DNA from: an uncultured Eubacterium sp.
GTDB lineage: Bacteria; Bacillota_A; Clostridia; Lachnospirales; Lachnospiraceae
Length of the DNA stretch: 6,167 bases
Direction of reading: 5' to 3'
NCBI GenBank assembly: GCA_948759685.1
Contig: CAQBGY010000206.1
Location: forward strand, 1 to 6,167
Shown here: positions 1,370 through 5,242 of the stretch, in pieces
Numbering within the stretch: the first letter of the stretch is position 1
Layout of the letters: each line of letters opens with the position of its first letter
Position numbers and translations under genes: made by a program
The notes under the pieces: generated by a model
Told to the model about the DNA's origin: nothing
Databases searched by the model: none
What the model saw: the letters and a program-made list of their open reading frames with translations, nothing else

Positions 1370-1643
1370 TTTCAGACTTCTATGGAGATAGTTCTGAAAG
1401 GACATAGTTAACGAAGAGCGTTTGATATATTATCCTAAGTTGAAATCTGGACAATTTCATTCTTCAAGGATAGTAGGCAAGAACGCTCACGTCAATGTTA
1501 TATATCTATCTTATATTGGATAGTCTATATATCGTTTGGCGTGGGCTATTGTTTATTACTTGAAGAAGGGCAGTCCAGAGCCTCAACTTAGTAATATTCA
1601 ATAGTTCCCACGCTTCTTTATTGTATAATATTCCCTAGGGAAC
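1370..1643 (+). ncRNA. Long rod-shaped structured RNA, possibly 6S-like
   Basis: No protein frame is convincing here, but the RNA folds into one long irregular hairpin. Helices from outside in are: 1413-1416/1613-1616 and 1419-1421/1610-1612; 1422-1425/1598-1601 and 1427-1432/1592-1597; 1435-1443/1583-1591 (nine perfect pairs); 1447-1452/1573-1578 (six); 1460-1468/1559-1567 (nine perfect); 1469-1473/1546-1550; 1488-1495/1536-1543; 1499-1504/1526-1531; 1506-1510/1519-1523, with apical loop 1511-1518. That is about 65 pairs with only two G-U. A 14-base bulge (1474-1487) faces two bases (1544-1545), and an eight-base bulge (1602-1609) lies on the 3' side. A separate 5' hairpin (1370-1376/1393-1399) and a 3' palindrome (1631-1642) flank the rod. 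A long hairpin with asymmetric bubbles is the architecture of 6S RNA, the RNA polymerase regulator. The Rfam Bacteroidales-1 motif, described in this order behind the same promoter type, is another candidate. I cannot confirm either family by eye. The 3' end is uncertain because no strong U tract follows; a weak stem at 1659-1663/1677-1681 with five T (1685-1689) could end it. Confidence 0.7.
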
Positions 1644-2517: not shown

Positions 2518-2663
2518 CGAAGGTGTTTGGTATCTTTCATAATACAAGCCAACTGAATTTAGGGATAGAGGTTGGGAAAGGACTGACAGCTCCACACTTT
2601 CTTTTATGAATATATTACTGCCATTATAGGAGTGAAATGGCTATTATTATTTATTGGTTATGA
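2514..2663 (+). other. Chain of mini reading frames ahead of the LRR gene
   Basis: Three short frames follow one another: 2514-2609 (31 codons, starting MTKVFGIFHN), 2606-2629 (7 codons) and 2637-2663 (8 codons). The first starts inside the stop of the 2437 frame (ATGA at 2514), the second inside the stop of the first (ATGA at 2606), and the last has its TGA at 2661-2663 overlapping the ATG at 2660 of the large lipoprotein gene. AGGAG at 2628-2632 lies well placed for ATG 2637, which is uncommon in this phylum. None resembles a known protein. They could be debris or a translational-coupling leader. No TAnnTTTG promoter was found between 2366 and 2660. Confidence 0.3.
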
Positions 2664-5242
2664 TGAAAAAGGCGACATTCTTTTTCTTGGTTATTGCAAC
2701 ACTGACTACCACATTTTACAGTTGCAAGACAAACACAGATGATTTATGGGACAGCATCCACCAACTGGATGAAAGGGTTACTTCATTGGAAGAATTATGC
2801 AAACAGATGAATGGCAATATCAGTTCCCTACAGAAACTGGTACAGGCATTACAAGACAACAACAGTATAACCAAAGTTACTCCAATCAAGGAAAGGGAGA
2901 AAGTCATAGGCTATACAATCTCATTCACCAAAGGCGAACCAATTACCATCTATCATGGTGAAAAAGGTGAGCAGGGTGATAAAGGTGATGATGGCACTAC
3001 TCCTGTAATTACAGTAGACCAAGATGGTGAAACATATTATTGGAAGGTAAATGGGGAGTGGTTGACTGATAAGAAAGGAAATAAAATACCCACCACTGGC
3101 GAGGATGGGCAAGACGCTGTAAGCCCACAGCTTGAAATAAGAAATGGAAGGTGGTTTTTGTTTAATGGTGAGACATGGACTGACATAGGACAGGCAACTG
3201 GAGATGCGGGGAAAGATGGTGACAGTTTCTTTGAGAGCGTGGAAGAGAAAGAAGGGTATGTAGAGTTTACCCTTCCAAGTGGTACTGTACTGACAATTCC
3301 TAAAAATACCCTGTCAATAGTAAAAGGTATTAAGTCTGTTTCATATATTCCCCGTTATGATGATGGTAAGGCATCCGTTTCAGGAACTTCAAAAGCAGAC
3401 AGTTACATAGAACTGGATTTTGAGATTTCCCCAAAAGAAAGTGCTGACTTGTTGGTGAAATATGACGGTGTAGTATCAGTACAAGGAATATATACCACCA
3501 TCAGAACCAGAGCTATTGACTTTATACAGTTCCCTGTATTGTCCATTAGTGCAGAAAATGGCATATTGAGTTTAAAGGTTTCTGGTGAGAATCTGGATGA
3601 TGCATTTTTCGCTGGCACACAAGGTGCGCAACTGGCATTGAAGTTGGAAGACAGTGAATCAACTTACGCTTCTGATTACATAGGCATAGTTCCTTCTCTC
3701 CCTACATATACTTTTACTGCTACATATCAAACTACTTCACCCAATCAGACTATCAAAATAGCACATGATATTGATGCATATCCAATAGCAGGTGCAGCTA
3801 ATCGTTTAATTAGTATTGACTATGGAGATGGAACTAATGGAACTTCCAGTACACATACTTATGCAGCACAAGGTGAACATACGGTTACGTTTTCTTTTGT
3901 AAATGAGGTGACAGAGATTGGGGAACACGCATTTAAAGAATGTAGCCAATTAACTGGTATTGAATATCCTAAAAATATCACAAAGATTAGTGACAAAGCT
4001 TTTCATAAAACTGGAATAATTGATATCATAATACCCAACACTGTAACGCATATTGGAAAATCAGCCTTTGAGGAATGTATCAATGTTAAACGTATAAATG
4101 TTCCCAATAGTATTAAAAACTTAGGTTCAAGAGCTTTTGCATATCGCACAACAGGAGAACTATACATTGATTGTGATATACCATCTTATCAATTTGGTGG
4201 TATAAACGATACGAGTTTTTATTGGGAGTCTGTATTTTATTGGAATAATATAACTAAAATTGTAATAGGCAAAAATGTGAAGTCTATAGGTGATTGGGCT
4301 TTTACTGACTGTAATCAAGTTAGAACTATTGATTATGAAGATGGAACTCAATTAGAAAACATTGGATATGGTGCTTTTCAATGTCCACTAGTTGAAGAAA
4401 TGCCAATTCCTCGTTCGGTAAAAACTATGGGGGATTATCCATTTGCTCTTTGCTCCAGTCTAAAAGGTTTTAAAATGGTTGGTTCTGGAAATGGAAATTA
4501 TATTGTCAGAAATGACATGTTATGTGTAAATCTTGGTGGAACAATAATTCGTTGTCCGCCTTTAAAGGAAGGCAGTTATTGTGATATTAGAGGTGCGAAA
4601 GGAATTGCCAAAGGGGCATTCAGAGACTGTATTAACCTTGAAGAAATTGCTGTAAATTCAGGTTCAGAGCCAATGATAATTGAAGAGGGGGCTTTTTATG
4701 GTTGCAAAAATTTGGTTACAGTGACAGGTTTTGAATCTACAAATCCAACGTTAGACCTGACATTTCATGGCTGTGAAAAATTGACTTCGATTGAATTACC
4801 AACAACAGTTGAAGAAATAGGGTATGAAGCTTTTTGGGGATGTAAGAGTTTAACTGGAGACCTTGTTATTCCAGACAATGTAAAAACTATAGGAATCAGC
4901 GCTTACGAAGGATGTGCAGGATTTAAAGGAAAACTAATTATACCTAATACTGTAGAAACTATTGGACATGGAGCTTTTAAAGGGTGTGTTGGAGTGCTCA
5001 AAGGAGGTGAATTATATTTAGGAAAAGGATTAAAACAAATTGATGATAGAGCCTTTGATGCAGGTTCAGATGAAAATGTGCCTAGTTCTTTCCGTAAAAT
5101 ATATTGTAGTGCAACTGTCCCACCAATCATCAATTATAGTGACCTTAATTGTGAACAATTAATTGTCCCTAAAGGCTGTTTAGAAGCATATCAAAACAGT
5201 AATTGGAATAGTGTATCAGGAAATATAATTGAAGAGGATTGA
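2660..5242 (+). CDS. DUF4988 / BspA-type leucine-rich-repeat surface lipoprotein
   Basis: The 860-aa product is a modular cell-surface lipoprotein. The signal peptide ends in the lipobox FYSC with Cys22. Residues about 26-68 form a heptad-patterned coiled coil, followed by a collagen-like Gly-X-Y run (GEKGEQGDKGDDG, 100-112) and further TGEDG and TGDAGKDG turns at about 146-190; this arrangement is that of the DUF4988 domain. Residues about 220-345 are beta-rich. Residues 382-414 form a short PKD-like unit (DYGDGT...HTYAAQGEHTV). From about 415 to 803 come some 13 BspA-type LRR_5 repeats marked by IGxxAF motifs, and the C-terminal cap (811-852, VPP...LIVPKGCLEAY) is typical of this family. 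BspA-type proteins bind host or bacterial surface ligands; the ligand here is unknown. ATG 2660 is preferred to TTG 2654; ATG 2663 is equally possible. Base composition differs between the two halves (see findings). The reading frame is intact throughout. Confidence 0.92.
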   Translation: MMKKATFFFLVIATLTTTFYSCKTNTDDLWDSIHQLDERVTSLEELCKQMNGNISSLQKLVQALQDNNSITKVTPIKEREKVIGYTISFTKGEPITIYHGEKGEQGDKGDDGTTPVITVDQDGETYYWKVNGEWLTDKKGNKIPTTGEDGQDAVSPQLEIRNGRWFLFNGETWTDIGQATGDAGKDGDSFFESVEEKEGYVEFTLPSGTVLTIPKNTLSIVKGIKSVSYIPRYDDGKASVSGTSKADSYIELDFEISPKESADLLVKYDGVVSVQGIYTTIRTRAIDFIQFPVLSISAENGILSLKVSGENLDDAFFAGTQGAQLALKLEDSESTYASDYIGIVPSLPTYTFTATYQTTSPNQTIKIAHDIDAYPIAGAANRLISIDYGDGTNGTSSTHTYAAQGEHTVTFSFVNEVTEIGEHAFKECSQLTGIEYPKNITKISDKAFHKTGIIDIIIPNTVTHIGKSAFEECINVKRINVPNSIKNLGSRAFAYRTTGELYIDCDIPSYQFGGINDTSFYWESVFYWNNITKIVIGKNVKSIGDWAFTDCNQVRTIDYEDGTQLENIGYGAFQCPLVEEMPIPRSVKTMGDYPFALCSSLKGFKMVGSGNGNYIVRNDMLCVNLGGTIIRCPPLKEGSYCDIRGAKGIAKGAFRDCINLEEIAVNSGSEPMIIEEGAFYGCKNLVTVTGFESTNPTLDLTFHGCEKLTSIELPTTVEEIGYEAFWGCKSLTGDLVIPDNVKTIGISAYEGCAGFKGKLIIPNTVETIGHGAFKGCVGVLKGGELYLGKGLKQIDDRAFDAGSDENVPSSFRKIYCSATVPPIINYSDLNCEQLIVPKGCLEAYQNSNWNSVSGNIIEED

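Follow-up and report, generated by a model that had tools for sequence, protein, structure and literature searches.

What is the long, strongly folding segment at positions 1370-1643 of this 6,167-nucleotide stretch of DNA (the window), and what might it do there? The sequence-only reading described a single hairpin of about 65 base pairs between 1413 and 1616, more pairing than expected by chance, two perfect nine-pair helices and a TTG-N19-TAACTTTG promoter, and these observations hold up. The minimum free energy (MFE) of 1370-1643 is -92.7 kcal/mol, compared with -58.05 ± 4.8 for 200 dinucleotide shuffles, none of which is as low (z = -7.22). Positions 1413-1616 alone fold at -80.1 kcal/mol with 77 predicted pairs; 200 mononucleotide shuffles of this segment attain at most 69 pairs and a lowest energy of -55.7 kcal/mol. 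The nine-pair helices are exact, with 1435-1443 being the reverse complement of 1583-1591 and 1460-1468 that of 1559-1567. The promoter motif, recognized from sequence, lies at 1334-1363 on the forward strand, like all other features described here, and consists of TTG (1334-1336), a spacer of 19 nucleotides and TAACTTTG (1356-1363). We take it to be a promoter of the -33/-7 (Bacteroides) type, and we infer that transcription starts near 1370. The MFE fold places a small 5' hairpin, TTTCAGA...TCTGAAA, at 1370-1399, and a similar stretch is found in related copies. The apical hairpin (1499-1531, from MFE folds) varies in sequence and length, and is short or absent in several members.

Rfam 15 contains no family, and hence no known riboswitch or leader, that matches the RNA in cmscan searches of the window (to E 5) and of 12 further member loci (to E 0.5). 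One match below the cut-off lies elsewhere in one of these 12 loci. Judged by sequence comparison, the RNA belongs to a multicopy family of Bacteroidales and Fibrobacterota. By blastn, it matches five records of a plasmid collection and two scaffolds of a phage collection, and a pattern derived from the alignment finds at least 119 GTDB contig stretches and two viral contigs. The 5' partner is present in 106 of the 127 pattern matches (window and loci; 103 distinct). Inspection by eye suggests that the remaining 21 include truncated or variant members and chance matches in unrelated genomes, and none of seven genomes with chance pattern matches contains the family. A covariance model built from 36 sequences (R1) was run on ten genomes chosen as carriers and yields 23, 14, 9, 19, 8, 5, 6, 4, 19, and 2 sense matches (G001 to G010) at E 0.1 or better, with opposite-strand echoes removed by hand and the weakest matches included without individual checking.

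Carrier frequencies, each with the centre genome included, are 26 of 31 genomes for the genus Bacteroides, 16 of 38 for the phylum of Fibrobacter intestinalis, 10 of 41 for the order of the centre genome (E 1e-7, strict filters) and 2 of 118 for Bacteroidota (E 1e-8, strict filters). The sequence-only reading had suggested a new Bacteroidales small RNA. A structured non-coding RNA without an Rfam match it is, but it extends to the Fibrobacter phylum and is most likely a 5' leader. Some copies occur as close pairs, at 1352-1546 and 3501-3697 of locus L234 and at two places within about 500 bases of each other on contig C92 of genome G007. Two others (L127 and L128) lie on IMG/VR viral contigs, one of them with a serine recombinase upstream. 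Members are also found on contigs of metagenome-assembled genomes (MAGs) named for other phyla, a Verrucomicrobia MAG (L038) and a Clostridium MAG (L012), a placement that may reflect mis-binning or transfer.

The core rod (1435-1591) comprises helices c (1435-1443 with c' 1583-1591), k (1446-1452 with k' 1573-1579) and e (1460-1468 with e' 1559-1567). All three covary. In a partner-swap test of 81 copies, found by the covariance model and not by the pattern, z reaches 38.4 (c:c'), 22.5 (k:k') and 32.6 (e:e'). Both of the nine-pair helices show compensatory changes. A MAFFT alignment of 36 sequences contains double changes in 27 of 43 rod pairs, and none of 500 shuffles attains its score; 93.3% of its cells pair, compared with 39-45% when the partners are slid by 1-3 columns. 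The alignment fitted to the covariance model, which leans to structure, has double changes in 38 of 43 pairs, including all seven of k:k' (83 distinct rows, two of them opposite-strand echoes). Within the pattern-selected set, one k position is G-C in 72 copies and C-G in 34 with no mismatches, A and T being excluded from both sides by the pattern and the 5'-partner rule. A second k position is C-G in 89 copies, A-T in 15 and mismatched in two.

Two local mini-hairpins surround k and k'. H5 (1441-1459) has the flanks UGAAAU and AUUUCA and the loop CUGGACA; its flank pairing scores z = 5.6, and AA and UU are kept in more than 90% of copies. H3 (1568-1583) has the flanks GGGC and GCCU and the loop AGUCCAGA, with a flank-pairing z of 4.6. 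Its GGY..RCC motif is found in 77 of 81 copies (C-G in 51, U-A in 18, U-G in seven and C-A in one) and is missing from four. The two loops are complementary to each other. The left side of H5 against the right side of H3 scores 9.6 in a window that includes the end of c:c', and the control line gives -0.5.

Beyond the core, five segments can pair in alternative ways. Segment 1 (B5, 1413-1435) pairs with segment 2 (B3, 1468-1493) through GAGCGTT (1416-1422) and AACGCTC (1482-1488), and through TATTATCC and GGATAGTA. Segment 2 can instead pair with segment 3 (G5, 1538-1558) as part of the rod, and segment 3 can in turn pair with segment 4 (G3, 1592-1613) in a stem that resembles an intrinsic terminator and is followed by a U tract (1614-1622). 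Lastly, GUUCCC of segment 4 (1604-1609) is complementary to GGGAAC of segment 5 (H, 1638-1643), across the U tract. The swap test was applied to 171 of 172 copies, with 40 swaps each and approximate windows somewhat wider than the segments. It supports B5:B3 (z = 13.5), B3:G5 (25.7), G5:G3 (17.8) and G3:H (6.6); the other combinations score -1.4 (B5:G5), 1.2 (B3:G3), -0.1 (G5:H), 2.0 (B3:H) and 2.0 (B5:H), the background of the test reaching about 2.4. For G3:H, a second run gives 8.6 and a control window further downstream 2.4, and the score is 7.2 for copies with near start codons and 5.1 for those with far ones. B5:G3 shows weak support (5.3), which transitivity through the other three pairings can explain. 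It also implies that the rod may extend at its base as far as the U tract and could act as a terminator in its own right.

The comparison suggests that pairings 1:2, 2:3, 3:4 and 4:5 are mutually exclusive, as in a transcription attenuator. The single rod put forward at the outset is therefore only part of the picture: the rod itself covaries, but the same bases form a second, exclusive set of helices that includes a 3' stem with its U tract (1592-1622) and a partner at 1638-1643. A single static rod as the whole account is ruled out, because 1:2 and 3:4 covary too, and so are three free hairpins without a rod, because the strands of c, k, and e come from opposite sides of the molecule. The Fibrobacter copies (n = 22) are less clear. 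Taken alone, they give weak scores for B3:G5 (2.5), G5:G3 (2.3) and B5:G3 (3.4), and the swap test supports neither B5:B3 (0.2) nor G3:H (-1.2). The full ladder is thus established for the non-Fibrobacter copies only, nearly all of which are Bacteroidales among those with a record title (L008-L087).

At least six T residues occur in the 12 nucleotides after the 3:4 stem in 154 of 170 copies, the other two of the 172 lacking either the sequence or the stem needed for the count. ViennaRNA predicts both states to be stable. The rod-type state is favored over the terminator state by a median of 10.8 kcal/mol (170 copies, with no credit for loop kissing), and the terminator stem is absent from the predicted minimum in 154 of 170 copies.

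These features make it probable that we are dealing with a 5' leader RNA, some 250-280 nucleotides long, that acts in cis by attenuating transcription of the gene or genes behind it. Transcription would begin near 1370. In the OFF state, hairpin 1:2 would form, and stem 3:4 with the U tract at its end would serve as an intrinsic terminator. In the ON state, the long rod would form: segment 2 would capture segment 3, the U tract would be partly covered, pairing 4:5 would become possible and the polymerase would read on. The rod is assigned to read-through because it captures segment 3 and frees segment 4 for segment 5. The core, with its c, k, and e helices and the two mini-hairpins with complementary loops, would nucleate or lock one of the states. 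We infer that the element is transcribed, that its termination is regulated, that the rod is the ON state and that a ligand, a protein or a small RNA makes the choice.

The surroundings of the RNA are consistent with such a role. Of 171 copies, 134 have TAnnTTTG upstream, compared with 12.4 expected from mononucleotide shuffles, and TTG lies 17-21 from it in 85 copies. The start of an open reading frame (ORF) follows the terminator at 30-79 nucleotides in 85 of 159 copies, where the rule requires an ATG start, at least 60 codons and at least 600 nucleotides of sequence behind the copy, and distance is counted from a fixed U-tract point. In the controls, the rule is satisfied in nine of 93 cases when one looks leftward of the promoter along the opposite strand, and by 106 of 700 random anchors further downstream. 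What comparison of the copies bears out is the set of pairings, a U tract after the stem, a promoter motif and a place ahead of genes. At the level of the family, a promoter motif upstream and a close gene on the same strand accompany an apparent intrinsic terminator and a covarying antiterminator that excludes it through the shared segment 3, the latter being weak in Fibrobacter.

The downstream products look exported more often than their neighbors. By a home-made rule, 71 of 118 products with a start 30-200 nucleotides behind the RNA appear exported, compared with 233 of 837 other ORFs (at least 150 amino acids) from the same loci, and a lipobox is present in 32 of 118 versus 55 of 837. For 106 of 113 downstream products, the Pfam matches include LRR_5 (10), LRR_8 (7), Lipocalin_4 (5), DUF5640 (3), Big_2 (3), FecR (2) and sigma-70 (2), and no common pathway is seen among the best 25 of 65 families. 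A defence-system reading of these genes was rejected; among the first 25 of 52 families, all that speaks for it is isolated restriction/methylase-type matches, each in one member. By eye, the lipoproteins behind L214, L218, L111, L107, L124, L100, L079 and L021 share a signal-peptide start of the type MKT-FRFIG-L-C-NFTSC and then diverge.

The window itself is a less typical case. A second leader stretch (1854-2004) is, in all or part, 81-93% identical by blastn to the sequence preceding the start codon in L174, L108/L216, L215 and L111. The nearest clear gene encodes a lipoprotein-like DUF6567 protein (2000-2365; PF20205, 5.3e-40, scanned as a longer ORF from GTG 1910) and begins about 380 nucleotides beyond the U tract. 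It is followed by a gene for a DUF4988/BspA-type leucine-rich repeat surface protein (2654-5242; PF13306, 4.4e-66; PF16378, 1.5e-32). The distance to the first of these genes counts against attenuation, as do the 74 of 159 copies whose ORF start falls outside 30-79 nucleotides, the weak or unsupported pairings in Fibrobacter and the lack of a common pathway noted above.

The two live competitors of attenuation, a leader acting after transcription and a trans-acting small RNA, are not exclusive of it, and the likelihoods that we attach to the three readings sum to more than one. The preferred distance of the start codon would also suit a post-transcriptional leader, in which rod and branched foldings set translation, stability or protein binding (for example, of an RRM-type protein) rather than termination. 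The conserved AA, UU, GG, and CC next to k and k' fit this idea as a possible site for a protein. A U tract placed directly after the 3:4 stem is needless for such a role, and we regard the explanation, though compatible with attenuation, as somewhat unlikely.

A free-standing, trans-acting small RNA family with its own promoter and terminator and a FopS-like copy number, for which the genes behind would be incidental, is unlikely. The copies do carry the promoter and terminator signature. In addition, a multicopy small RNA family of B. thetaiotaomicron adjoins transposases and invertases according to the parts of PMC11697453 consulted, and a recombinase is the nearest upstream gene in 13 of 100 rows here (12 loci, by sequence). 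Yet start codons lie 40-69 nucleotides behind the terminator in 69 of 159 copies, too close for a separate promoter, and TAnnTTTG occurs between terminator and ORF in none of the 85 near copies (3.1 expected). Furthermore, segment 5 covaries with segment 4 although it lies beyond the terminator, and no constant single-stranded stretch of seed length is visible by eye within the 171-position model.

It is quite improbable that the locus is primarily a DNA element, such as a recombination or inversion site or a mobile hairpin element, whose RNA features would be secondary. Blastn delimits a unit common to close Bacteroides relatives, with its left edge at 1301-1330; among the closest loci, this edge mostly falls at 1300-1309 and otherwise lies further right. 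TAATAAACAATAG (1318-1330) forms a perfect 13-nucleotide inverted repeat with 1546-1558 in segment 3, as detected by repeat search, and is possibly a recombinase or regulator site. The same stretch, above the -33 box, is also a near direct repeat (88%) of 1592-1607 in segment 4. Downstream, the window is a mosaic: 1301-1820 is 97.3% identical to L012, a separate locus, with the similarity limited to this interval; 1744-1842 resembles (97%) what follows another copy (L223); and 1854-2038 resembles (90%) the leader that follows a third (L174). The RNA loci seem to recombine with each other. Some loci have recombinases upstream, of the Phage_integrase type (tyrosine, mostly 195 amino acids) in L012, L256, L260, L262, L263, L100, L118 and L039/L274, and of the Resolvase type (serine, 211-214 amino acids) in L001, L111, L127, L257 and L258. 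They were judged by shared sequence, with Pfam run on L256, L001, L127 and L111. In the window, the upstream gene is PDDEXK_2 and a recombinase is absent there. Against a DNA element, the upstream neighbor is of a different kind in 87 of 100 rows (by eye), and the compensatory changes are specific to individual copies. G-U cells outnumber A-C cells by 534 to 44 (82 rows), a ratio of about 12 in an alignment that leans to structure, which points to RNA and fits one read from this strand.

The sequence-only reading was reminded of polymerase-trapping 6S RNA by an asymmetric 14:2 bulge and a 3' bubble, and the long rod with internal loops and the promoter motif speak for such an RNA. We hold a 6S-like RNA to be extremely improbable: cmscan finds no match to 6S or to Bacteroidales-1 (RF01693), which we take to be the Bacteroidales 6S RNA, the ten carrier genomes have 2-23 sense matches each, one copy of Bacteroidales-1 lies elsewhere in each of five carrier genomes out of five, and the present RNA sits before genes and has a terminator/antiterminator ladder.

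A more specific form of the attenuation reading can be offered tentatively. The RNA may represent an orphan class akin to riboswitches, an attenuator of five segments in which an intramolecular kissing-loop and rod core senses a signal and which acts in cis at up to about 20 loci. It would select which surface lipoproteins, BspA-type proteins, sigma/anti-sigma pairs and restriction genes are read in gut Bacteroidales and Fibrobacter, and in Bacteroides would be partly coupled to gene-shuffling recombinases. If read-through is regulated, the family would form a cis-regulatory layer that acts globally on surface and accessory genes. This is a structured RNA of considerable size with up to about 20 matches per genome in abundant gut bacteria, yet it has no match in Rfam 15, and its many natural copies are ready material for tests.

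Among known systems, trp-type attenuators and riboswitches with expression platforms have a promoter, exclusive 1:2, 2:3, and 3:4 pairings, a U tract after 3:4 and a gene behind. The present RNA shares this entire arrangement. It differs in having no recognized leader peptide (by casual rather than systematic search), ligand site or Rfam aptamer, and adds a fifth segment, a loop-loop core and many copies before unrelated genes. Bacteroidales-1 is likewise a structured RNA of comparable size (its model has 179 positions) from Bacteroidales, but it is single copy, occupies a separate locus, and its model does not match the present RNA. In the search with 6S-Flavo (RF01685), the controls were silent.

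The FopS/GibS small RNAs of Bacteroides, as far as PMC11697453 was consulted, are similar in being multicopy and in having a housekeeping-type promoter and an intrinsic terminator. FopS is described there as a single-stranded 5' stretch plus a terminator hairpin that acts in trans, whereas most core bases of the present RNA are paired; relative to that description, its structure lacks an unpaired, conserved 5' seed of the FopS type followed by a terminator. The portion consulted also reports a second multicopy, RbpB-linked family in B. thetaiotaomicron, with six members (BTnc020, BTnc054, BTnc075, BTnc172, BTnc213 and BTnc266) beside transposases and invertases (PMC11697453). Compared by description only, it resembles part of the Bacteroides copies in both respects. 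This family could be the Bacteroides branch of the present one, in which case a part would already have been seen as transcripts (PMC11697453). Literature searches over titles and the openings of abstracts brought up no recognizable RNA family of this kind. Five searched words are absent from the main text of PMC8040213; its thousands of candidates lie outside this check, and an uncurated earlier prediction is therefore possible. Set beside these systems, the RNA is best read as an undescribed cis-acting leader, probably an attenuator.
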